A stretch of 33,477 nt of DNA from assembly GCF_022690685.1 (NCBI RefSeq), contig NZ_JALCYY010000053.1, forward strand, positions 1-33,477, read 5' to 3'. Source of the DNA: Anaeromyxobacter terrae. GTDB taxonomy: Bacteria; Myxococcota; Myxococcia; Myxococcales; Anaeromyxobacteraceae. Under the pieces are notes generated by a model. The model was not told the origin of the DNA, searched no databases, and saw only the letters and a list, made by a program, of their open reading frames with translations. The position numbers and the translations under genes are program-made. Below are positions 1 to 33,477 of this stretch, one piece after another (within the stretch, counting starts at the first letter, position 1; every line of letters begins with the position of its first letter).

Positions 1-127
1 GGCGATCGAGAGCTACATCGCCATCACGAACGACCAGCCCAAGCCCTTCGTATGGACCAAGTCCGCCGACGAGATCCTCGCCAGCGTTGCGCGTTTCTGC
101 CGGCGGACTTCTGACTCAGGACACTAG
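1..127 (+). pseudogene. IS630-family transposase, C-terminal tail (cut by window edge)
   Basis: Frame 2 reads from the window edge to a TAG at 125-127 and gives a 41-residue tail containing KPFVWTKSADEILASVARFC. That pattern is the usual C-terminus of IS630-type DDE transposases, where a 'KPF-W-T-A--I' block closes the protein. Only the end is visible, so it cannot be said whether the upstream part is intact. The gene converges on the minus-strand RAYT gene and the two overlap by 12 bp (116-127). I see no convincing terminal inverted repeat or TA target duplication just beyond the stop. Confidence 0.7.
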
Positions 128-739
128 TTCCTGCACGGCGGCCGAGAGCTGCTCGCGGAACTCATCCGCGGAGGCGAAGCCCGGCGGGGCCGACAGCTCG
201 AGCTCGACCGTCTCCGGAAGATAGCCCTTGGGGTTGAAGAAATGCTTCGGCCGCCTCGCAGCGAGCGTGGTCCCGATCTGGTCGGGCGAAGTCCAGAGCC
301 CCGGCCACTCCGCGCCGCGCCGGACGAGCCCGGCGGCGACGGGGTTCGCTAGCACGTACGCGGCCTTCGCGAGGACGTCCTGGGCGTCGAGCTGCTCGAC
401 GGCGCTGTAGCTCCCGTCGGTGGCCCAGAACGCCTCGAAGCGGCCGAGCGAGGCGTTCACCGCGCGGGCGACGAGGGAGTCCAGGTACTGCATGAACGCG
501 GGGATCCGCCCGTTGGGATCCGTGACGATGAGATGGGCGTGGTTGGAGAGCACGCACAAGACGTGGACGACGACGCCGTGGCGCTTGGCGGCGAGCGCGA
601 GGACGTAAAGGAAGATCTCGTTGACGATCTTGGACGGGCGAAGGAAGAAGCGTCGCTCCGAGCAGCGCCTGGTGATCAGGTAGACGGTCCCGGGCAAGAC
701 GCGACGAGGTGCGGTCACAGGCGGCGACAAGGCACGCAT
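116..739 (-). CDS. REP-associated tyrosine transposase (RAYT, Y1/IS200-like HUH transposase)
   Basis: The 207-residue product has the organisation of REP-associated Y1 transposases. An N-terminal 'PGTVYLITRRC' strand is followed by the HUH metal-binding motif in 'LSNHAHLIV' (about residues 65-73). A helix then leads to 'AAYVLANPVAAGLV' (about residues 126-139), the signature in which the catalytic tyrosine helix ends. These single-strand transposases cut and bind hairpins in REP sequences and are usually domesticated single genes without IS ends. The ATG is at 737-739, in the loop of a long hairpin described separately. The 3' end overlaps the convergent IS630 tail. The catalytic Tyr was assigned from family pattern, not from an alignment. 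Confidence 0.85.
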   Translation of the reverse strand: MRALSPPVTAPRRVLPGTVYLITRRCSERRFFLRPSKIVNEIFLYVLALAAKRHGVVVHVLCVLSNHAHLIVTDPNGRIPAFMQYLDSLVARAVNASLGRFEAFWATDGSYSAVEQLDAQDVLAKAAYVLANPVAAGLVRRGAEWPGLWTSPDQIGTTLAARRPKHFFNPKGYLPETVELELSAPPGFASADEFREQLSAAVQELVS

Positions 740-1747: not shown

Positions 1748-3847
1748 TCAGGGCGGCCCGAGCCGCAGCCCCGCGGCGAAGCCGAGCCAGGCGTCGCCCC
1801 CGCCGAGCTCGCGCTCGAGCGCGCCACCGAGGCCCGGACGGAAGTCCCCCTCCGCCCAGAACATGCTCACGCTCGGCCCGGCCACGACCGCGGCGTAGGG
1901 CGTGAGCTGCCAGCCGGCGAGCACCCGCGCCGTGGCGAGCACGTTCGCGTCCTCGTCCACCACCTGCTGGCTCAGGAGATCCACGTCCAGGAGGAACCGG
2001 CCGCGCGCGTGGTGCGCGCCGAGCCCGAGGCCCGTCCAGAAGCGCCCGCCGCCGCTCGCGCGCTGCGCGCCTGCGGACAGGATCGTGTGGAACGTGCGGC
2101 TCCCGAGCAGGAGCCCGGTGGAGAGGATCCCGTTCTCGTCGCCCAGCACGAGGAGCTTGTGCTCGCCGTCGCGGACGAACGGCACGAGCCCGAGCGACAC
2201 GCCGTCGAGCCCGTCAGCCACGTTCACGAGCCCGAGCTGCGCCCCGCGGACGTGGCCGGCGACGTTGACGAGCCCGAGCTGGACGCCGCGCACGCCGGCG
2301 CCCACGTTCACGAGGCCGACCTGCGCCCCGAGCACCTCGCCCGAGACGGAGGTGAGCGCGAGCTGCGCGCCAGAGATCGACGAGGAGTAGCTCACGAGCG
2401 CGGACTGGAGCCCGGTCACCGCCCCGGCCGCCCAGCTCACGCCGGAGTGCTGCCAGCCGACGACGTCGCCGCGGACCAGGTTCAGGCCCTGGGTGAGCTG
2501 CACGCCCCGTAGCGACCCGGCCACGTTCGCCACCATCCCGACCTGCACGCCGGTGACCCGGCCGCGCGCCGAGCTCCCGATGTAGGAGAAGAAGCCGCCC
2601 ACCACGTCCTCGTCCGCCCAGAGCACCGGCGCGAGCCCGATCCCGCGCAGCCGCGTCGTCCGCGAGCCGATGAGGCCGAGCTGGAGCCGGTTCACGACGT
2701 AGCGGTCGCCGTTCAGCGACACGGGCGGGAAGATCGAGAGATCCACCGGCACGCGGGCGAGCTCCTCCACCGCGTCGCCGCGCAGCGCCGTCAGCTCCCG
2801 GGGCACCGCGGCGAAGCCGGCGGCGGCGAGCTCGGTCCGGCCGCCCTGCGTGAGCGCGACGCGCGCCTCCACGAGCCGGCCGCCGTCCTCGCGGGAGACC
2901 CGGTAGCCGCCCGGGTCGAGCGCCAGCTCCAGCGGCCGGCCGGCCTGCTTGCGCAGCTCGGCCACGAGCCGCTCGCCCGAGTCGCGCACGAAGAAGCGGC
3001 CCGCGGCCGCGGCCGGCAGGACGAGCGTGGCGCCGGTGCCGCGCAGATCGGTCAGCACCACCTCGCCCGCGCCGACCAGCTGGATGTCCCAGACCGCGTG
3101 CTGCGGACCGCCCCGGGTCCGCTCCGTCCGCGCGAGCGTCTCCTCGAACGCGAACTGGTAGACCTCCGAGAGCGTGACCTTCCCGTCCTGGCTCGAGTCG
3201 GCGGCGCCCCGGAGGCCGGTGACGAGGGCGTGGGTGAAGTACGACGCGCCGACCCGGTCCGACTCCTGGGAGGCCTCGTCGGCGGAGCTCGAGGTGAGGA
3301 TCACCTGGCCGCTCACCCGCGACGAGGCGTCCACCAGGAACGGCGCGGCGCGAGCGCCCCCCTTCCCGCGGGCGAACGAGCCCGAGGAGCACGAGTCGAG
3401 GATGGCGATGCGGATGTCGGCGCCGAGGTCCTCGAGCCACCGCCGGAGCTCGCTGTACGGGACGCGCGCGCCGCGGAGGAGCAGCCCCTCCTCGTCGGAG
3501 TGTCCGGAGTAGTAGAAGAGCACCTCGGTGCGGCCGCCGAGCCGCGCGCGCTTCACCCGAGAGCGAAGCTCCTCGAGGGCCGCGCGCAGCCTCGCCTCTC
3601 CGGGGTCGAGGAGCACGATGGTGTCCTCGCCCGCGACGCCGCCCATCTGCTGCAACACCCGCGCGACCCGCTCCGCGTCGGAGATCGCGTAGCGGAGCCG
3701 CGGGCGGGAGGGGCCCCCGTCGTTCGCCCCCGCCACGATCGCGAGGCGGCGCACCGCCCCGGGCTGCGCGCGCTCGTGCGGCGGCTCCTGCGCGAAGGCG
3801 CCCGCGGCGCAGAGCGCCATGGCGAGCGCGAGGACGGGTCGGGTCAT
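1748..3847 (-). CDS. Secreted caspase-family (C14) protein with C-terminal surface-repeat domain
   Basis: The 699-residue protein begins with a signal peptide (cleavage probably after AFA, residue ~19). A caspase-like peptidase domain covers about residues 34-255, with catalytic His116 in YYSGHSD and Cys153 in ILDSCSSG. An acidic loop 'DSSQDGKVTLSE' (~217-228) is typical of bacterial caspase-like proteins. A short linker region (~265-345) follows. From about 366 a domain begins 'VPVDLSIFPPVSLNGD' and passes into repeats of the form G-x-Q-L-G-L-V-N-V (to ~560), resembling the LA_2272-type surface repeats, then a beta-rich tail. The domain from 366 on is homologous to the gene at 5207-6292. Its ATG overlaps the stop of the anti-sigma gene by 4 bp, so the two are translationally coupled. 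Substrate is unknown. Confidence 0.88.
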   Translation of the reverse strand: MTRPVLALAMALCAAGAFAQEPPHERAQPGAVRRLAIVAGANDGGPSRPRLRYAISDAERVARVLQQMGGVAGEDTIVLLDPGEARLRAALEELRSRVKRARLGGRTEVLFYYSGHSDEEGLLLRGARVPYSELRRWLEDLGADIRIAILDSCSSGSFARGKGGARAAPFLVDASSRVSGQVILTSSSADEASQESDRVGASYFTHALVTGLRGAADSSQDGKVTLSEVYQFAFEETLARTERTRGGPQHAVWDIQLVGAGEVVLTDLRGTGATLVLPAAAAGRFFVRDSGERLVAELRKQAGRPLELALDPGGYRVSREDGGRLVEARVALTQGGRTELAAAGFAAVPRELTALRGDAVEELARVPVDLSIFPPVSLNGDRYVVNRLQLGLIGSRTTRLRGIGLAPVLWADEDVVGGFFSYIGSSARGRVTGVQVGMVANVAGSLRGVQLTQGLNLVRGDVVGWQHSGVSWAAGAVTGLQSALVSYSSSISGAQLALTSVSGEVLGAQVGLVNVGAGVRGVQLGLVNVAGHVRGAQLGLVNVADGLDGVSLGLVPFVRDGEHKLLVLGDENGILSTGLLLGSRTFHTILSAGAQRASGGGRFWTGLGLGAHHARGRFLLDVDLLSQQVVDEDANVLATARVLAGWQLTPYAAVVAGPSVSMFWAEGDFRPGLGGALERELGGGDAWLGFAAGLRLGPP

Positions 3848-4620
3848 CTCGGTTCCTCGGGCTTCCGGAGGAGCAGCGCGTGCTGGTTCAGGCCGGCGGG
3901 GAGCGGCAGCGGATCCTGGCGGGCGCGGCCAGCGGCCGCCAGCCGGCGCGCGGCCTCCACCACGGTCGCGGTGTCGAAGGGCGCGTCCGCGGTCACGAGG
4001 AAGAAACGCTCGAACGCGGGCGCATCATCCAGCAGGTAGGCGTGGGGGAGCGGCACCGCCCCGGACTGGGCGAGCGCGGCGGCCGGACCGCCGTCCTCGG
4101 GCCAGTGGAGCGTGACGATCCCGCGGCCGTCGACCGAGACCACCGCGCCGAACCGCCTGCCCGCCGCCACGTACGAGAGCTGCAGGAGGTCGCCCTCCCG
4201 CGCCACCGCGCCGTCGCGGAGCTCCTCCGCGCCGTCGCCCCCGCGGCTGCGGTGCACCTCGAGGCGCGCGGAGAGGCCCTTGAGGCGCGTGTCCTCGACG
4301 GGCGCGACCGGGCCGGAGACGGCGCGCAGCACGACCACGGAAGCGACCGCGACCGCCGCCGCGACCGGGACGAGCAAGAGCGGCCGGCGAGCGCGCCGCG
4401 GCGCCGGTGCGCCGAGCGCGGCGCGGCGGCGGATCTCCGCGAGGGCCGGACCGGGCGGATGGGCGTCGCGGAAGGCGGCGTCCTCGCGCGCGAGCGCGTG
4501 GAGCCGGCGCTCGCCGCCCTCGGCCGCGAGGCGGCGCCGCACGCGCTCGGCCTCGTCGGGAGGCAGGTCGCCGGCGTGGAGCCGCTCCACCAGGTACTCG
4601 GGAGTGCGATCCGGGCTCAT
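3844..4620 (-). CDS. ActD-like membrane protein, probable anti-sigma factor
   Basis: A 258-residue protein. An N-terminal charged, helical region (1-75, with 'VERLHAGDLPPDEAERVRRRL') could be a zinc-less anti-sigma domain. It is followed by one membrane helix (about 80-101) and an extracytoplasmic domain with 'LKGLSARLEVHRS', 'GDLLQLSYVAAGRRFGAVVSVDGRG' and 'LDDAPAFERFFLVTA'. This last region matches what I remember of myxobacterial proteins annotated 'ActD-like'. It overlaps the sigma-factor gene upstream and the caspase gene downstream by 4 bp each. The position directly after an ECF sigma gene and the topology support an anti-sigma role, which is inference. The extracellular part could sense or receive a signal from the caspase partner. 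Confidence 0.75.
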   Translation of the reverse strand: MSPDRTPEYLVERLHAGDLPPDEAERVRRRLAAEGGERRLHALAREDAAFRDAHPPGPALAEIRRRAALGAPAPRRARRPLLLVPVAAAVAVASVVVLRAVSGPVAPVEDTRLKGLSARLEVHRSRGGDGAEELRDGAVAREGDLLQLSYVAAGRRFGAVVSVDGRGIVTLHWPEDGGPAAALAQSGAVPLPHAYLLDDAPAFERFFLVTADAPFDTATVVEAARRLAAAGRARQDPLPLPAGLNQHALLLRKPEEPR

Positions 4621-5120
4621 CGCTGCACCTCCGTCTCCGAGGCCGCTCCGGCCTGCTCCGCGGCGCGCCGCCGGAGCCCGCCGAGCCGCTTGCGGACCGC
4701 GGCGGCCGTGAGCCCCACCTCGCGCCCGACCTCCTCGAGCGTCAGGCCGTCCACGTAGTGGAGCACCGCCATCACCCGGGTGGACTCCTGCTCGCGCCCG
4801 AGCAGCCGTCCGACGACGAGGCGCGACAGCGAGCGCGCCTCGGGCTCGTCCGCCGCCGCGATGGCGAGGAGCGCCGCCTCGTCCCGGTCCTCCGGCCGGC
4901 GCCGCTCGGTGCGGAGCAGGTTCAGGCAGACGCGGGTGGCGATGCGCAGGAGGAGCGACGCGGGGGCCTCGTCGCGGAGCCGGTCCTCCGCCCGGAGCAG
5001 GTTCACGAACGTGTCGTGCATGGCGTCCACGGCCCTCTCCTCGTCACGCAGGAGGCGGCGGCAGCGGCGCAGGACCATCGGCGCGAGGTCCCGGTAGTAC
5101 GCGTCGACGTCGACCGCCAC
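4617..5120 (-). CDS. ECF-type RNA polymerase sigma factor
   Basis: A 167-residue sigma-70 family protein of ECF size. Region 2 lies at about residues 8-75 ('AVDAMHDTFVNLLRAEDRL' for promoter -10 contact). Region 4 lies at about 110-155, with the helix-turn-helix 'LTLEEVGREVGLTAAAVRKRLGGLRRR'. The start is a GTG at 5118-5120, preceded on the minus strand by a purine-rich ribosome site (ggagagagaggg) at the right distance. It is the first of three translationally coupled genes (sigma, ActD-like, caspase). ECF genes usually autoregulate, so a promoter is expected in 5121-5206 or upstream of the next gene, but no -35/-10 could be assigned with confidence. Confidence 0.93.
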   Translation of the reverse strand: MAVDVDAYYRDLAPMVLRRCRRLLRDEERAVDAMHDTFVNLLRAEDRLRDEAPASLLLRIATRVCLNLLRTERRRPEDRDEAALLAIAAADEPEARSLSRLVVGRLLGREQESTRVMAVLHYVDGLTLEEVGREVGLTAAAVRKRLGGLRRRAAEQAGAASETEVQR

Positions 5121-5206: not shown

Positions 5207-6292
5207 TCAGATCCGCACGCCCGCGACGAAGCCCACCCACACGCGCGCGTACCGGCCGCCGCCGAGCTTCCAGCCGAGGTGCAGGTCGGGCTGGTCCTCG
5301 TCCGAGACGAGCACGTTCGCCGTCGGGCCGGCGAGGATCCCCATCCACTCGGTGAGCCGGTAGGCTGCCACCGCGCGGAGGATCCCGAGCACCGCCTCCG
5401 GGGTGCCGTCGAGCGAGACCGCCTGCGCGACGAGATCCAGGTCGAGCGCGAGGCGCTGCGCCGGCTCGAACCCGACGCCGGCGCCGCCGCCCAGGGTGGA
5501 GAGCGTCTTGCCCGATCGCGGCTGCGCGTCCGGCTGCGCGCCGGCGGCGAGGACCCCGTAGGCGCGGCGCCCGCCGAGCCGGACGCCCGCGGCGAGCGGC
5601 GTGAGCTCGGTCGCGTAGAGCTCGAGCTCGTGGCGGCCGCTCCGCACGAGGGCGAGGACGCCCACCGAGCCATCCGCCTCCTCGGCCAGGTTCACGAGCC
5701 CTACCTGCGCGCCGCGCACCCGGCGAGCGACGTTCACGAGCCCGAGCTGCGTCCCCGCCACCTCGCCGCCCACGTTCACGAGCGCGAGCTGCACCCCGCT
5801 CAGCCCGCCGGCGACGTTGACCGCGGCCACCTGCACGCCCTCGAGCCTCCGCGCGAAGTTGGCCGCGCCGCCGAGCTGGACGCCCTCCCCGCCGCCGCGG
5901 ACCACGTTCACGACCTGCGACGCCTGGAGGCCGCGGAGATCGCGCGCCACCGTGGTGACGGTCGCGAGCTGCACGCCGCGCACGACGCCGCCCGCGCTGG
6001 CCGCGGCCCAGGTCACCTGCGCGCCCGAGACGTCCTCGTCGGCGAGGTGCACCGGCGCGAGCGCCAGGCCGCGCAGGACGGTGGAGCGGGCCACCACGCC
6101 GATCGAGAGGTGGTTCTCCACCCGCCCGTCACCGTTCAGGCTGAGGGGCGGGACCAGGGAGAGATCCACCGGGACCTGGCGGAGCGCGGACACGGCCTCC
6201 GCGGAGGGCCCCTGGCCCGGCGTCGCGGCGAGCGCCAGGGCGGGCACGGCCGCGGCGAGCGCGGCGAGGGTGGTGCGAAGCGGGTTCCGCAT
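5207..6292 (-). CDS. Secreted surface-repeat protein (LA_2272-like), paralogue of the caspase protein's C-terminus
   Basis: A 361-residue protein with a signal peptide (MRNPLRTTLAALAAAVPALA, then ALAA). From residue 40 it reads 'VPVDLSLVPPLSLNGDG', almost the same as residue 366 onward in the caspase protein. It then has 'LRGLALAPVHLADEDVSG' and a run of GVQLAxVxxVA / GTQLGLVNVA repeats (about residues 85-225), and ends with a beta-rich region. The repeats suggest a beta-structured surface or outer-membrane fold; function is unknown. It lies 86 bp upstream of the sigma gene on the same strand and probably belongs to the same regulon or operon. The ATG at 6290-6292 faces exbB divergently. Confidence 0.82.
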   Translation of the reverse strand: MRNPLRTTLAALAAAVPALALAATPGQGPSAEAVSALRQVPVDLSLVPPLSLNGDGRVENHLSIGVVARSTVLRGLALAPVHLADEDVSGAQVTWAAASAGGVVRGVQLATVTTVARDLRGLQASQVVNVVRGGGEGVQLGGAANFARRLEGVQVAAVNVAGGLSGVQLALVNVGGEVAGTQLGLVNVARRVRGAQVGLVNLAEEADGSVGVLALVRSGRHELELYATELTPLAAGVRLGGRRAYGVLAAGAQPDAQPRSGKTLSTLGGGAGVGFEPAQRLALDLDLVAQAVSLDGTPEAVLGILRAVAAYRLTEWMGILAGPTANVLVSDEDQPDLHLGWKLGGGRYARVWVGFVAGVRI

Positions 6293-6540
6293 GGGCGTCG
6301 TCCTCCTTCCCGTGGCCGAGGGGCGGTCGGCGGGGTCGGAGGGAGGAACACCGCCACGTGCCGCGTGCGCTACCGCGGCGCGGGCGATTCACATTTCTTC
6401 ACGCTCCGACCAGATCGGGGCAACCTGCGGCCGCCATGCTCCGCGCCGCCTCGGCGAGGGGCGGTAGCGGGATCTCCGCGCCGCGGTGTTCCCTCGCACA
6501 ACACGAGCGCCGCACCTTCGCGGTCAACGGAGCGTCACAC
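6293..6540. promoter_or_regulatory. Divergent promoter region between surface-repeat gene and exbB operon
   Basis: This 248-bp gap separates two divergent transcription units, so it must hold promoters in both directions. It is slightly less GC-rich around 6386-6420 and 6490-6540. No perfect palindrome, Fur-box-like sequence or confident -35/-10 pair was seen by eye. Confidence 0.4.
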
Positions 6541-7239
6541 ATGACGAAGTCCCTCTTCGAGCTCTTCACGCGCGCCGGCGCCGAGTGGGTGATGCTGCTC
6601 CTCGTCGGCCTCTCCGCCGCCTCGGTCACGGTCATCCTCGAGCGGGCCCTGTACTTCGCCCTCCGCCGCCGCACCTCTCCGGACCTCCTCACCCTCCTCA
6701 TGGACGGGCGCCTCGAGGAGGCGCGGGCCCGCATCGAGGGCCGCCGCGGCCTGGAGGCGGAGGTGGCGCGGGCGGCGCTCGACGCCGCCGGCGGCGGCCC
6801 CGCCGCGGTGCAGGAGGCGGTGGCCTGCACCATCGCGGACCGCCGGCTCGGCTACGAGCGAGGGCTCTCCTTTCTCGGCACGCTCGGCAACAACGCCCCC
6901 TTCCTCGGCCTCTTCGGCACGGTGGTCGGGATCATCCGGGCCTTCTCCGACCTCGCGGTGGGCGGCCCGAAGGGCGCCGGTGCGTCGGCGGTGATGTCCG
7001 GCATCTCGGAGGCGCTCGTCGCGACCGCGGTCGGCATCTTCGTGGCCATCCCGGCGGTCGTCGCGTTCAACGGCTTCCAGCGCTGGCTGCGCACGCTCGT
7101 CACGCGCGCCGAGGCGATCGGCCACGCCCTCGCGTCGCACCTCGAGCGCGACGACGTCCGCGCCGCGGCCCGAGCCCGGCTCGACCACGGCAGGCCCGCG
7201 CGGCGCCCCGAGCCCCACGAGTCGAAGGGCGCCGCCTAG
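6541..7239 (+). CDS. exbB: ExbB/TolQ/MotA-family proton channel subunit
   Basis: A 232-residue inner-membrane protein starting at MTKSLFELF. An open frame extends further upstream but has no coding character. It has the three-helix arrangement of the family: helix 1 near residues 15-35, then a cytoplasmic region, then 'GTLGNNAPFLGLFGTVVGIIRAF' and 'ALVATAVGIFVAIPAVVAFN', which form the conserved channel-lining helices with the family's Thr/Gly pattern. With ExbD it uses the proton gradient to drive TonB. It is the first gene of a five-gene plus-strand operon. TolQ is the alternative name, but the neighbours (TonB and a receptor) favour ExbB. Confidence 0.92.
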   Translation: MTKSLFELFTRAGAEWVMLLLVGLSAASVTVILERALYFALRRRTSPDLLTLLMDGRLEEARARIEGRRGLEAEVARAALDAAGGGPAAVQEAVACTIADRRLGYERGLSFLGTLGNNAPFLGLFGTVVGIIRAFSDLAVGGPKGAGASAVMSGISEALVATAVGIFVAIPAVVAFNGFQRWLRTLVTRAEAIGHALASHLERDDVRAAARARLDHGRPARRPEPHESKGAA

Positions 7240-7269: not shown

Positions 7270-7695
7270 ATGGCCGCCCACTCGAACGGCAGCGACGAGG
7301 CGATCACCGGCATCAACGTGACGCCCCTCGTCGACATCACCCTCGTCCTCCTCATCATCTTCATGGTCACCGCCTCCTACATCGTGAAGGAGAGCATCGA
7401 GGTCGACCTGCCCCGCGCCGCCAGCGGCGGCGAGACCGTCGGCCCGACCCTCGCGTTCGCGCTCGATCGGGACGGGAAGCTCTTCCTGGACGGAAGGCCC
7501 GTCGGCCGCGCCGAGGCCCGCGCCGCCGTCCGCGCGGCGCTCGCGCGGAGCGCCGACGCGCGGGCGCTCATCGGCGCGGACCGGGCCGTGCCTCACGGCG
7601 AGGTGGTGTCCGTGATCGATCTCGTGAAGAGCGAGGGGCTCACCCGCTTCGCGATCCAGATCGAGCACGACGCGTCGGGGGAAGGCGCGCCGTGA
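7270..7695 (+). CDS. exbD: ExbD/TolR-family energy-transducing protein
   Basis: A 141-residue protein with a short cytoplasmic N-terminus and one membrane helix, 'VTPLVDITLVLLIIFMVTA'. That helix contains the conserved proton-carrying aspartate (Asp22). A periplasmic domain (about 45-138) follows, ending 'HGEVVSVIDLVKSEGLTRFAIQ', typical of the family. It works with ExbB as stator and proton path. The gene follows exbB by 30 bp, and its TGA overlaps the GTG start of tonB. Confidence 0.93.
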   Translation: MAAHSNGSDEAITGINVTPLVDITLVLLIIFMVTASYIVKESIEVDLPRAASGGETVGPTLAFALDRDGKLFLDGRPVGRAEARAAVRAALARSADARALIGADRAVPHGEVVSVIDLVKSEGLTRFAIQIEHDASGEGAP

Positions 7696-8432
7696 CCCCG
7701 GCGCCTTCCGACGGTCCGCCGCGGGGCCGCACGCTCGCCGCGATGGCGCTGGCCTCGCTGGCGATCCACGCCGGCGGGTTCGCCTGGGCCGGTCGCCTCG
7801 AGCCGCGTCAGGCCGCGAGGCCCGCGCCCGTGGTGGTCGAGTTCGAGGCCGCGCGGCCTCCGCCGCCGGCGCCCGCGCCGCGTCCTCCCGCGGAGCGACC
7901 GGCACCCCGCCGCGTCGCCATCGCGAGGCTCCCGCCGCCGACGGCGGAGCCGCCTCCTCCGCCGCCGCCGAACGAGCCGCCGCCGCCCGCCGCTCCGGCG
8001 GCGCGCGCCGTCCCGCGCGTCGGGGTGTCGCTCTCCTCGACCACGACGGGCGGCGGCTTCGCGGTGGGCGTCGGGAACACGCTCCACGGCAGGGCGTCCG
8101 AGATCGCCGCCGATCCCGACGCGGTGAAGCCGTACGCCGCCCCGCGGACCGCGCCCGCCCGGCTCTCCGCGCAGCCGCGCCTGCTCGAGCGGCCGGAGAT
8201 CCCGTATCCCCCCGAGGCCCGGCGGGAGGGGCTCGAGGGGCAGGTCGTGCTGCTCCTGCGGATCGACGCGGAGGGCCGGGTCGCGGCGGCACGCCTCCTC
8301 TCCGCGCCGGGCCCTGCCCTCGGCGAGGCCGCCCGGGCCGCCGCGCTCCGCTTTCGCTTCACGCCTCCCCTTCTCGACGGCGAGGCCGTCGAGACCGAGA
8401 TCCGCTTCACCTACACCTTCGTCCTGGAGTGA
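7692..8432 (+). CDS. tonB: TonB-family energy transducer
   Basis: About 246 residues from a GTG at 7692 that overlaps the exbD stop; an internal ATG at 7742 is a less likely alternative. It has a short hydrophobic N-terminal anchor ('LAAMALASLAIHAGGFAWA', about 15-33). A proline-rich spacer of the kind that spans the periplasm follows (about 50-100, with PPPP runs). The C-terminal TonB domain (about 165-246) contains 'IPYPPEARREGLEGQVVLLLRID' and 'FRFTPPLLDGEAVE'. The middle section holds a Ser/Thr/Gly-rich stretch (VGVSLSSTTTGGGFAVGVGN) often seen in myxobacterial TonB proteins. It delivers ExbBD-derived force to the receptor encoded next. Confidence 0.9.
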   Translation: MTPAPSDGPPRGRTLAAMALASLAIHAGGFAWAGRLEPRQAARPAPVVVEFEAARPPPPAPAPRPPAERPAPRRVAIARLPPPTAEPPPPPPPNEPPPPAAPAARAVPRVGVSLSSTTTGGGFAVGVGNTLHGRASEIAADPDAVKPYAAPRTAPARLSAQPRLLERPEIPYPPEARREGLEGQVVLLLRIDAEGRVAAARLLSAPGPALGEAARAAALRFRFTPPLLDGEAVETEIRFTYTFVLE

Positions 8433-8437
8433 ACTCC

Positions 8438-11029
8438 ATGCGCCGCTCGCCCTTCACCGCGCTCGCCCTGCTCGGCCTCCTCCTCGGCGGCGCGGCCCCC
8501 GCCCGCGCCGAGACGGAGCCGAAGGAGACCGGGGTCCTCACGCGCGCTCCGGCCGTGGTCGAGCCGGTCGAGCCGGAATACCCGGAGGCCGCCCGCGCGG
8601 CGGGGCTGACCGGCGTCGTCACCCTCGAGGTCGAGATCTCCGAGACCGGCGAGGTCACCGACGCGGTGGTGACCGGCCCCGCCGGCCAGGGGTTCGACGA
8701 GGCCGCCCTCGCCGCCGCCCGGAAGCTCCGCTTCTCCCCGGCGGAGATCGACGGAGCGCCGGCACCGGTCCGGATCGAGTATCGCTTCACGTTCTCGCTG
8801 TCCGCGCCGCCCGCCACTGCGCCCGCGCCGCCGCCGCTGAACCTCCTCGGCCGCGTGCTCGAGCGCGGCACCCGGCTCCCGATCGCGGGCGCGATGGTGG
8901 AGGCCGGCGGCCAGCTCGCCCACACCGACGGCGAGGGACGGTTCGCGCTCGCCGGCGTGGCGGACGGCGCGGTGCAGGTGGTCGTGACGGACGTCGACCA
9001 CGCCCGCCTCGAGTCGGTGGAGACCGTCGAGCCGGGCAAGGCGACCCAGGTGACCTACTGGCTCCAGAAGACCACCGCCGCGGGCGAGTACGAGGCGGTG
9101 GTGGTGGGCGAGCGGGAGGAGAAGGAGGTCTCGCACGTCGCGATCGCAGCGGGAGAGATCCGGCGCGTCGCGGGCGTCTCGGGCGACGCGGTGAAGGTGA
9201 TCCAGAACCTCCCCGGCATGGCCCGCTCCTTCCTGAGCGGCGAGATGATCGTCCGCGGCGGCAACGCTCGCGACACGCGCGTTTACGTGGACGACGAGGA
9301 GGTGCCCGCGGTCTTCCACTTCGGCGGCCTCACAAGCGTCTACTCGTCGGAGCTCCTGAAGGACGTCGAGTTCGAGGCGGGGAACTTCGGCGTCCGCTCG
9401 GGGCGAGCGATCGGCGGCCGCGTGAACCTCGTCACCCGCGATCCCGGCGAGCGGACCCACACGCTCGCCGACGTGAACCTGTACCACGCGACCGCGCTCT
9501 ACGAGGGCCGGCCGTCAGAGGACCTCGGGATCGCGATCGCCGCCCGGCGCTCCTACGCGGACGCGGTCGTGACCCGCGCGGTCGAGTCGATGGACGACCC
9601 GCCCGGCGTGAGCACCGCGCCTCGCTACTACGACCTGCAGCTGAAGGCCGCGTGGAAGGCGACCCCCGACGACACGGTCCGCCTCGACGTCTTCGGCTCG
9701 GACGACCGCATGGTCCTGACCGGGGTCGACGACGACCAGTCGCTCGAGGACCTGAGCTTCCTCGAGTACGGCACCCGCTTCTACCGGGCCGGGCTCCGCT
9801 GGGATCACCGCGCGAGCGAGGCGACCCGGCTCCGGCTCGCGCTCGGCGGCGGCTGGCAGGACATGGGCATCGACGCCGCCGGCCAGTTCCGGATGGTGCA
9901 GGAGCTCTGGAGCACGCACTTCCGCGCCGAGGTCCATCACGAGCTCGCGCCGCGGGTGAAGCTCGTCACGGGCGTGGACGGGCAGTGGTACCCGAGGGTC
10001 AAGATCGAGGTGGACGCGCCCCCCATCCCTCCGCCCGGCCAGGTCCCGAGCCCGACCGCCGAGACCCGCCGCTTCGCCACGACCATGGACGGGCTCGAGG
10101 CGGGAGCGTTCGTGGAGGCCACCCTCGAGCCCGTCGACGGGCTCTTCGTCGTCCCCGGCGTGCGCGCCGACGTGCACCGCGCGCTCGCGAACCTCTCCTG
10201 GGTGGATCCCCGCCTCGCCGTCCGCTGGCAGCTCCGGCCCGAGACCGCCCTCAAGGGCGCGGTCGGCCTCTACCACCAGGCGCCGCCGTTCCCTTACGTC
10301 ACCGAGGAGTTCGGCAACCCCGCGCTCCGCGAGGAGGGCGCCTGGCAGTACGCGCTCGGCGCGGAGCAGCGGCTCCTGCCGCGCCTCCTCCTCGACGTGC
10401 AGCTCTACTACAAGCGGCTCTTCGATCTCGCCCTCCCCTCCGACGCGGTGATCACGCGGGACGGCCAGCTCGTCGCCGAGCGCTACCGGAGCGCGGGCAC
10501 GGGGCGTTCCTACGGCGCGGAGCTGCTCCTGCGCTGGGACCCGGACGGCCGCTTCTTCGGGTGGATCTCCTACTCGCTCTCGCGCGCGGAGCGGGGCGAG
10601 TCCGTCGCGGGCGGCCGGCTCGAGAGCGAGGGGGACGCCTTCGACCAGCCTCACAACGTGGTCGCGGTGGGCACGGTCGAGCTGCCCGAGCTCTGGCAGG
10701 GCCTCTCCGCCGGTTTCCGCGCCCGCTACACGAGCGGAAATCCGTACGAGCCCGTCCACGCCGCCGTGTACGACGCGGACGCCGATCGGTACCAGCCGAT
10801 CCAGACCGGCGCGCTGACGGGGCGCATGCCGCCGTTCTTCCAGCTCGACCTCCGCGTCGACAAGAAGTGGACGGCCCGCACCTGGACGTTCGCGGCGTAC
10901 GTCGAGGTCCAGAACGTCACCAACCGTGAGAACCCCGAGGCCGCCGCGTACAGCTTCGACTACTCGCAGCACGGCTGGTACTCGGGCCTCCCGCTCTTCC
11001 CCTCCTTCGGCCTGCGCGCCGAGTACTAG
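8438..11029 (+). CDS. TonB-dependent outer-membrane receptor with an N-terminal TonB C-terminal-like domain
   Basis: 863 residues from ATG 8438 (an in-frame GTG sits 9 bp earlier). The signal peptide ends near APARA (24). Residues about 30-115 are a TonB C-terminal-like domain ('VEPEYPEAARAAGLTGVVTL', 'KLRFSPAEIDGAPAPVRIEY'). A carboxypeptidase-regulatory-like beta sandwich follows (about 125-205, 'LLGRVLERGTRLPIAGAMV'), then the plug (about 215-330, 'IVRGGNARDTRVYVDDEEVP') and a beta-barrel to the end. The substrate cannot be read from the sequence. Carrying a TonB-like domain on a receptor is unusual outside myxobacteria. It follows tonB by 5 bp. Confidence 0.9.
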   Translation: MRRSPFTALALLGLLLGGAAPARAETEPKETGVLTRAPAVVEPVEPEYPEAARAAGLTGVVTLEVEISETGEVTDAVVTGPAGQGFDEAALAAARKLRFSPAEIDGAPAPVRIEYRFTFSLSAPPATAPAPPPLNLLGRVLERGTRLPIAGAMVEAGGQLAHTDGEGRFALAGVADGAVQVVVTDVDHARLESVETVEPGKATQVTYWLQKTTAAGEYEAVVVGEREEKEVSHVAIAAGEIRRVAGVSGDAVKVIQNLPGMARSFLSGEMIVRGGNARDTRVYVDDEEVPAVFHFGGLTSVYSSELLKDVEFEAGNFGVRSGRAIGGRVNLVTRDPGERTHTLADVNLYHATALYEGRPSEDLGIAIAARRSYADAVVTRAVESMDDPPGVSTAPRYYDLQLKAAWKATPDDTVRLDVFGSDDRMVLTGVDDDQSLEDLSFLEYGTRFYRAGLRWDHRASEATRLRLALGGGWQDMGIDAAGQFRMVQELWSTHFRAEVHHELAPRVKLVTGVDGQWYPRVKIEVDAPPIPPPGQVPSPTAETRRFATTMDGLEAGAFVEATLEPVDGLFVVPGVRADVHRALANLSWVDPRLAVRWQLRPETALKGAVGLYHQAPPFPYVTEEFGNPALREEGAWQYALGAEQRLLPRLLLDVQLYYKRLFDLALPSDAVITRDGQLVAERYRSAGTGRSYGAELLLRWDPDGRFFGWISYSLSRAERGESVAGGRLESEGDAFDQPHNVVAVGTVELPELWQGLSAGFRARYTSGNPYEPVHAAVYDADADRYQPIQTGALTGRMPPFFQLDLRVDKKWTARTWTFAAYVEVQNVTNRENPEAAAYSFDYSQHGWYSGLPLFPSFGLRAEY

Positions 11030-12646: not shown

Positions 12647-12808
12647 GGGGTTGCTCTCCGTCTCGGGAGTCGGCCGCAGGGCATGGGCGTCGAGCCTTCG
12701 GGGCGCCCGCGTACGATCTAAGCGATCGGCCGACGCGTGTCTCGAGGTTCATCCGTGTCGATATGACCTGGGGCGGTTCGGGGCGGAGGCGAGGTCGGGG
12801 GCGGGGGC

Positions 12809-12916
12809 GAGGTCGAGGTCGAGGTCGAGGTCGAGGTCGAGGTCGAGGTCGAGGTCGAGGTCGGGGTCGAGGTCGAGGTCGGGGTCGGGGTCGGGGTCGG
12901 GGTCGAGGGCGGGGTC
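12809..12916. repeat. Hexamer array, 18 units of GAGGTC/GGGGTC
   Basis: Eighteen consecutive 6-bp units lie in perfect phase: mostly gaggtc in the first two thirds, mostly ggggtc toward the end, with one gagggc. A looser G-rich version extends back to about 12791. The array runs straight into the left end of the 295-bp repeat copy at 12911. The long open frames across it (for example Ser-Thr or Arg-Ser repeats) are products of the period-6 composition, not genes. Confidence 0.95.
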
Positions 12917-13206
12917 GTTCTGGCCGACACTGCCGCGGCTGACGTCACCTTGGCGCGCCGCCTGGACGGGACCTCACGTCCTCGGCGGGCCACGATGGAC
13001 GGGGACAAGGTACGGGGGGCGGTGCCGTCCGCCAGACGCCGCCGGCAACGCGGGGCTGCGGGCGCTGGCTGCGCATGGGTGAGGTGGCCGTGGCCAACCG
13101 CGTTGCATTGCGGTCCGTGGGTCGGGGCGGTGCCTACCGCGTCCAGTGGCCCGCCTGCGGGCGCGAGGTCCCGCCACGTGGGGCGGCGCGCTGCGGGCGG
13201 GGTGGT
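12911..13206. repeat. Dispersed ~295-bp repeat element, copy 1
   Basis: This 296-bp block is repeated in the same orientation at 14377-14671. By eye I count about 14 differences including one single-base deletion, or about 95% identity. It contains short hairpins, for example gcccgc-ct-gcgggc (within 13149-13163) and ccgcc-N6-ggcgg near 13171-13186. In the second hairpin the stem is conserved between copies and only the loop differs. Open frames across it are not kept between copies because of the 1-bp indel, so it is probably non-coding. It is bordered by hexamer arrays on both sides (12809-12916 and 13229-13264). Confidence 0.9.
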
Positions 13207-33359: not shown

Positions 33360-33394
33360 TGCGTTTCGCGTCGAGAACGTCGACGTTGAGCCGC

Positions 33395-33477
33395 CCCGAC
33401 CCCGACCTCGACCTCGACCTCGACCTCGACCCCGACCTCGACCTCGACCCCGACCTCGACCTCGACCCCGACCTCGA
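33395..33477. repeat. Hexamer array (CTCGAC/CCCGAC), cut by window edge
   Basis: Thirteen complete phased 6-bp units plus five bases run to the end of the window. Read on the minus strand the units are GTCGAG/GTCGGG, that is the same GAGGTC/GGGGTC array as at 12809-12916 but in the opposite orientation. It follows the terminator of the lipoprotein gene. If the pattern at 12911 holds, a body copy of the 295-bp element may lie beyond the window edge. Confidence 0.95.

Follow-up and report, generated by a model that had tools for sequence, protein, structure and literature searches.

The sigma factor, membrane protein and caspase genes

We analysed a 33,477-nucleotide stretch of Anaeromyxobacter terrae (contig NZ_JALCYY010000053.1), hereafter called the window. 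Its minus strand carries three genes that an earlier note, made from the sequence alone, had singled out, and the list of open reading frames places all of them where that note had put them: a gene for an extracytoplasmic function (ECF)-type sigma factor (4617..5120, GTG start, 167 amino acids), a gene for a membrane protein of the ActD family that is probably an anti-sigma factor (3844..4620, ATG start, 258 amino acids), and a gene for a secreted metacaspase-type protease with a C-terminal, beta-rich LA_2272 region (1748..3847, ATG start, 699 amino acids). The reported 4-bp overlaps were borne out, with ATGA at each junction, except that the junctions number two and not three. The best explanation of this operon, which we put at roughly one chance in two, is an autoregulated module of a sigma factor, an anti-sigma factor and an outer-membrane-linked metacaspase, the caspase probably cutting the anti-sigma factor.

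The sigma factor, whose gene is the conserved upstream neighbor of the middle gene, matches the ECF model TIGR02937 with 52.8 bits (cut-off 42.9) and sigma region 2 (Pfam Sigma70_r2, PF04542) with 43.3 bits (cut-off 24); for region 4 (PF04545) the score is 20.3 bits, below the cut-off of 24.1.

The middle protein had been described as spanning the membrane with an external domain, and its structural model (mean predicted local distance difference test score, pLDDT, 88.9) agrees, with one membrane helix (residues 84-100) between N-terminal helices at residues 8-16, 21-33, 37-53 and 56-70 and an external beta domain from about residue 119. The linker that follows the membrane helix is floppy (pLDDT <50 at residues 105-111). 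A class I anti-sigma factor is defined by an N-terminal domain of four alpha-helices (PMC7406223); the model has such a domain, and the layout predicted for the whole protein, external domain included, agrees with this class. The ActD-like protein is thus a probable anti-sigma factor, an assignment that fits topology and gene order, homology giving no demonstration. Searches of Pfam and NCBIfam with the middle protein alone gave nothing credible, and kinship with DUF4384 became visible only with 73 relatives, of which 26 matched at E up to 1 (best 6.9e-05). Among solved structures the best sequence match had an E-value of 0.59, and Foldseek returned nothing at E <=0.001. The rows returned by VIA-align cover the external domain only, are Ig-like and have Z <=8.9, a level that the tool calls common; no known anti-sigma factor is among the matches listed, which proves nothing. 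When the 73 sequences were aligned, K114 and G115, within the linker, were invariant (73/73). R112 was rejected as the cleavage residue, since it is not conserved in the act-type proteins described below.

The caspase matches PF00656 over residues 33-218 (43.5 bits, cut-off 21.4). The His/Cys dyad is intact as claimed, H116 and C153 being unchanged in all 50 sequences of an alignment that contains the window protein, and the N-terminus bears what looks by eye like a typical signal peptide. The caspase part (about residues 32-270) aligns with metacaspase-4 (6w8r) at Z 20.3, with a root-mean-square deviation of 2.9 over 208 residues; animal caspases align at similar Z, and the nearest solved relatives by sequence are metacaspases (7qp0, E 3.3e-06). 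The model of EACC1-associated caspases, NF047832, gave 73 bits, under its cut-off of 140. Two acidic residues, D57 and D151, are also invariant among the 50 sequences, and may underlie a basic (Arg/Lys) cleavage specificity. Basic specificity is stated for orthocaspases (PMC6426788). Compared with metacaspases of known structure (Peptidase C14; 6w8r, 7qp0), the window protein shares the fold and the dyad, and differs by its signal peptide, its LA_2272 beta region and its place in a sigma operon.

This beta-rich region, overlooked in the earlier note, forms a separate part of the protein (residues 384-697) and consists of LA_2272 surface repeats (NF047436, 31.7 bits, cut-off 25), a match found at E <=0.01 in 47 of 50 relatives. 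In the model it has many long strands, mostly with pLDDT >90, and the C-terminal residue is I, L, F or M in 122 of 130 full-length relatives. The region is probably an outer-membrane or surface sheet, judging from the model. A porin (8wv0_B, E 6.3e-03) is among the matches of the whole caspase model, but the part that it matches was not located; it was therefore not used for reading the sheet as a barrel, which rests on the strand pattern. Matches of the protein are limited to Peptidase_C14 and LA_2272/VC2662, with no TonB-dependent receptor bearing an N-terminal signaling domain among them.

A fourth gene, likewise overlooked, lies upstream of the sigma gene in the same direction (5207..6292, minus strand) and is probably the first of the operon. 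It encodes a stand-alone LA_2272 surface-repeat protein with a signal peptide (NF047436, 43.6 bits, cut-off 25), a relative of the C-terminal half of the caspase (46%), and occupies the same position in two other Anaeromyxobacter genomes, G005 and G006 (G and L numbers are our handles for genomes and loci; the window genome is G000).

Conservation of the trio and its link to the act operon

The middle protein has relatives in 133 or more of the phylum's 195 genomes; this is a lower bound, scoring having been restricted to the 13 best candidates of each genome. A scan of named genomes that included alignment kept 80 loci, the most it could keep, out of 133 related stretches; they come from Myxococcota, Spirochaetota, Acidobacteriota/Aminicenantes and unplaced metagenome-assembled genomes. 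The sigma gene stands immediately upstream and the caspase gene immediately downstream of the middle gene in 53 of these 80, and this order is found at all 15 Spirochaetota and all 5 Acidobacteriota/Aminicenantes loci, an association beyond what coincidence would give. Conservation of the trio across Myxococcota, which the earlier note had proposed as a check, is thereby extended to three phyla. At the other 27 loci the sigma gene, the caspase gene or both are missing at the expected place: three (L132, L134, L136) have a contig edge or a partial sigma gene, two (L156, L168) an inverted neighbor, and the remainder are mostly splits in Myxococcus, Archangium and Corallococcus. Over all 120 loci, a count that is partly redundant because some loci are the same place reached two ways, both neighbors are present at 78, sigma only at 20, caspase only at 18 and neither at 4. 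At L234 / L118 (G099:C301) the sigma gene consists of two short pieces before intact ActD-like and caspase genes, and resembles a decaying gene. The window genome itself holds a second set of sigma, ActD-like and caspase genes, of another subfamily and without a match to the LA_2272 model (G000:C52:57226-58179, L279).

The neighborhood of sigma factor and metacaspase is not new, since it was published in 2012: sigma factors were noted in four metacaspase operons of M. xanthus, and likewise in Anaeromyxobacter, Haliangium, Sorangium, Ralstonia and Fibrobacter (Asplund-Samuelsson et al. 2012, PMC3501461). The Sigma-70/metacaspase operons of that paper resemble the window's in having a sigma gene beside a metacaspase gene, in Anaeromyxobacter among others; as far as they are described there, no middle protein, anti-sigma role, LA_2272 region, promoter motif or regulon is given, and cell death is the function suggested. 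In the window the ActD-like gene lies between the two, and that gene leads to a second known system, the act operon.

ActD has long been known as part of the control of C-signal production, and the act operon is developmental. At L084 the relative of the middle gene is preceded by genes for a GGDEF protein, a sigma-54 activator with a receiver domain and an epimerase-GNAT fusion, which we take to be ActA, ActB and ActC. The operon name actABCD is used in PMC4320627, which cites Gronewold and Kaiser 2001. The middle protein belongs to the ActD family because its relatives directly follow actA-actB-actC in Myxococcus-group genomes, and the name 'ActD-like' used in the earlier note was therefore right. 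The act operon of M. xanthus thus resembles the window's set in that ActD, related to the middle protein, is followed by a caspase relative; in the Myxococcus group it contains no sigma gene, whereas the window's set is a sigma-linked paralog without act genes.

How the genes are distributed over act and sigma loci varies from genus to genus (genus names of the genome groups were deduced from the named loci). All 27 act loci of the Myxococcus group have the ActD-like and caspase genes and no sigma gene, and all 26 fetched sigma loci of the same group (the sigma-type locus of G115 was left out) have sigma and ActD-like genes, no caspase gene, and a short remnant of the LA_2272 end. Four genomes of the Archangium group have sigma and ActD-like genes in the act locus and the caspase gene at a separate, sigma-less ActD-like gene, and two have all three genes in the act locus. 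The caspase is present at both loci in Citreicoccus (2/2). In Corallococcus all three genes are found at the 11 fetched sigma loci, and 13 act loci lack both the ActD-like and the caspase gene. Since act-type proteins form one clade (96/90), this distribution indicates that the trio was doubled or moved; separate lineages then kept the trio caspase at one of the two places, and in each case an ActD-like gene precedes it. That it stays there where the sigma gene was lost favors a caspase that acts also on the ActD-like protein. Comparison of sigma-less ActD with the sigma-linked paralogs of 26 genomes gave 66% in the sigma-side half, 54% in the external domain and 22% in the linker; the sigma-side half is thus kept in ActD proteins without a neighboring sigma gene, which we count in favor of the signaling scheme proposed below. 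An act-type ActD-caspase locus is also borne by contig BNCN01000010.1 (L113), recorded as Comamonas sp. KCTC 72670, a record that looks mislabelled.

A promoter-like motif and its predicted targets

An unsupervised search upstream of the sigma genes returned TGAC-N16-GGT at 37 of the 70 non-redundant loci, where chance would predict 0.2. In its full form, GTRAC-N16-GGTGTT, the motif precedes 108 of 139 sigma genes in the redundant set and 42 of 60 in the named one, where the reversed control gave 0/60; by group it is present at 34 of 41 loci of Myxococcota and others and at 3 of 5 of Acidobacteriota/Aminicenantes. It lies mostly 46-66 nt ahead of the sigma start. The usual ECF patterns (GGAAC with CGT) showed no enrichment in the same upstream regions. 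Moreover, at the sigma-less act loci of the Myxococcus group the ActD-like gene always has the motif directly ahead of it (27/27), and these 27 are the only matches in 465,454 nt searched on both strands. Sigma-less ActD-like genes are likewise preceded by it in Archangium (4/4), Citreicoccus (2/2) and Corallococcus (3/3), which with the Myxococcus group makes 36 of 36 fetched loci. We take GTRAC-N16-GGTGTT as the candidate promoter of the module's sigma factor; the ActD-caspase pair of Myxococcus is then predicted to be driven in trans.

In eight myxobacterial genomes the motif occurs 69 times, against 11 for the reversed control. Thirty motif loci were read. A short distance downstream of the motif are sigma operons and sigma-less ActD-like genes, exbB (L297, L317, L318 and also L335; ExbB was confirmed for L317), an LA_2272 protein (L311), a di-haem peroxidase-like lipoprotein (L299) and a lipoprotein with a GIN domain (L315); other genes were judged by eye. 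The two lipoproteins are not isolated cases: in several myxobacterial genera the motif stands before cytochrome-like lipoproteins (L295, L298, L299) and GIN-domain lipoproteins (L306, L315, L319), of which L299 and L315 are confirmed. A near-constant 27-mer that fits the motif is present once in each of six of the eight genomes (G086, G087, G118, G119, G121, G136); it was not counted as a target, no evident gene standing behind it in the loci read.

The window carries a variant, GGTAGC-N15-CGGTGTT, which has exactly two sites in the 5.65-Mb genome. One (6347..6374, minus strand) precedes the LA_2272, sigma, ActD-like and caspase genes; the other (6463..6490, plus strand) is divergent and precedes exbB, and both are conserved in G005 and G006. 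Behind the second lie exbB (6541..7239, MotA_ExbB 105.5 bits), exbD (7270..7695, ExbD 92.3 bits), tonB (7692..8432, TonB_C 59.5 bits) and a gene for a TonB-dependent receptor (8429..11029, PF00593 93.1 bits, PF03544 65.5 bits), all on the plus strand. The receptor has an N-terminal TonB_C-like domain of its own, and its gene lies behind a complete tonB gene. Each of the four Anaeromyxobacter genomes with the trio (G000, G001, G005, G006) has the variant exactly twice; G002, G003, G007 and G008 of the same genus have none, and G004 has one, as does its reversed control. In G001 exbB lies about 693 kb from the trio, and the second site is again found 45 nt before exbB. The receptor gene is matched at full length in G003 as well as in the four genomes with the trio, partially in the incomplete G008, and not at all in G002, G004 and G007; within Anaeromyxobacter the middle protein occurs in the same genomes minus G008, weakly in G003.

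Similar clusters are found in other genera. In G121 the motif precedes an exbB-exbD-tonB-receptor cluster, behind which lies a further caspase-LA_2272 gene; in Corallococcus G087 the motif and exbB have a caspase gene immediately ahead of them. From gene content and TonB size we infer that the Ton cluster behind the motif is the one that contains MXAN_0820 and MXAN_0821 in M. xanthus. Deletion of the receptor MXAN_0821 failed, which the authors took as a sign of essentiality, and the TonB protein MXAN_0820 binds the plug region of Oar, a receptor needed for secreting the protease that makes C-signal (PMC6434023).

Elsewhere in the window, positions 116-739 (minus strand) hold a relative of IS200-like (Y1) transposases (21.4 bits, Pfam cut-off 23), beside which lies a 26-bp tandem repeat of 3.1 copies (824-904). 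Long arrays of the hexamer GAGGTC/CGACCT are present at 12786-12917 (22 copies) and at 33394-33477 (13.5 copies).

A candidate trans-envelope signaling module

Comparison lends good support to the composition and order of the gene set, to the intactness of the dyad and to the shared promoter-like motif with its predicted targets; that the ActD-like protein binds the sigma factor, that this sigma factor recognizes the motif, that the third protein lies at the outer membrane and that the cleavage takes place is what we infer. Put together, they would make an autoregulated trans-envelope signaling module of ECF sigma factor, membrane anti-sigma factor and outer-membrane-linked metacaspase. The sigma factor would be held by the ActD-like protein, acting as an anti-sigma factor that crosses the membrane once, with four helices on its cytoplasmic side and an external domain resembling DUF4384. 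The third protein would combine a periplasmic protease of caspase fold with an LA_2272 region probably in or on the outer membrane, where it would sense an outer membrane or surface signal. The caspase would then probably make the first cut in the juxtamembrane linker of the ActD-like protein, with a candidate site after the invariant K114, and further proteolysis would free the sigma factor. Once free, this would transcribe its own operon (the genes for the LA_2272 protein, the sigma factor, the ActD-like protein and the caspase) and exbB-exbD-tonB-receptor and, in Myxococcus relatives, other surface proteins too.

A larger version of this proposal, which we hold only tentatively, would give an ancient ECF system, spread over three phyla, its dedicated site-1 protease in the outer-membrane-anchored metacaspase, which would cut ActD-family anti-sigma factors after the invariant juxtamembrane lysine and so switch on surface-repeat proteins and the TonB operon. 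The act operon of the Myxococcus group would have captured this ActD and caspase, both remaining under the module's sigma factor through an internal promoter, so that ActD would be an anti-sigma factor.

Several observations weigh against the proposed module. Among the 73 relatives of the middle protein there is no firm match to a known anti-sigma family; zf-HC2 is matched by four of them (best E 0.034), and not by the window protein. K114-G115 is kept also where no caspase adjoins the ActD-like gene, and its conservation may serve folding. The motif is exact at only 5 of 14 Spirochaetota loci. That the LA_2272 sheet probably forms a barrel is an idea taken from the model only, and the C-terminal residue is F or W in just 24 of 130 full-length relatives, so that aromatic ends are few. 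Three act loci of Corallococcus have the ActD-like gene alone, and a close trio caspase was not found in 2 of 16 Corallococcus genomes (G081 and G084, both drafts of many contigs). Finally, caspase-LA_2272 paralogs near the exbB cluster have no adjoining ActD-like gene, from which it follows that such caspases can work without an ActD-like protein.

The last point also feeds a serious rival, namely that the caspase is an output and not the trigger. An ordinary pair of sigma and anti-sigma factors would be opened by other proteases, and the caspase, as one of the induced envelope proteins, would process surface proteins such as LA_2272 proteins and the TonB receptor. Its place within the sigma operon, behind the motif, is what such an output would have, and the other predicted targets are envelope proteins as well. 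Where sigma and ActD-like genes parted, however, the trio caspase remained with an ActD-like gene (27/27 and 4/4 loci), and separate lineages each retained one of two caspase copies; we regard this rival as a real possibility, on the unlikely side. It is improbable that the caspase domain serves as a sensor or adaptor, binding the external domain of the ActD-like protein and holding or releasing it without a cut, in the manner of the signaling domains of TonB-dependent transducers. Gene order and layout are those of cell-surface signaling, where contact itself protects the anti-sigma factor (PMC11637429), but the strict conservation of the dyad (50/50) argues for catalysis.

The earlier note had left the choice between extracytoplasmic proteolysis that releases the sigma factor and a sigma factor that controls a caspase-based cell-death or developmental output. 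Parts of both survive: the motif data support transcription of the caspase genes by the sigma factor, and the split loci favor the ActD-like protein as the object of the caspase. Cell death as the output found no support, the predicted targets being envelope genes, exbB included. A device in which cells are killed or lysed by a secreted caspase that the sigma factor switches on, for instance in development, would suit the suggestion of metacaspases for M. xanthus autolysis (PMC3501461) and the ActD-caspase pair that the Myxococcus group has in its developmental act operon. It is nonetheless very improbable in our view, as the predicted targets are envelope and energy-transduction genes and the set is equally common in metagenome-known lineages of three phyla. 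The caspase may be signaling scissors instead of a killer.

Among the known systems closest to the proposed module are FecI-FecR-FecA and FoxI-FoxR-FoxA, which also comprise an ECF sigma factor, a single-pass anti-sigma factor and an outer-membrane protein with a periplasmic N-terminal domain, and which share the TonB link and anti-sigma proteolysis (PMC11637429); anti-sigma activity, outer-membrane location and cleavage are predictions for the window's proteins. We do not file it under that type, because its third protein bears a protease and is not a TonB-dependent receptor with a signaling domain; moreover, the external domain of its middle protein is DUF4384-like and the protease is encoded inside the module. 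ECF54 systems also place ECF sigma genes beside genes for caspase-like proteases, and their CHAT or subtilase neighbors were proposed to serve ECF factors without an anti-sigma factor (PMC8999054); the window's set differs from them, as described there, by its membrane ActD-like protein and its secreted caspase. In the open-access literature, covered through titles and abstract openings (subscription papers being outside this scope), nothing assigns ActD as an anti-sigma factor, the motif GTRAC-N16-GGTGTT is not described, and no caspase is reported to act on an anti-sigma factor.

With a promoter motif and few targets to follow, the idea can be tested directly in laboratory myxobacteria. If it is true, bacterial caspase homologs would gain a concrete regulatory job, the release of a sigma factor, against the cell-death role assumed for them, and the module would be a new kind of trans-envelope signaling in which the protease comes with the outer-membrane partner itself. 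It would also account for a possible function of ActD in the act operon of myxobacteria.

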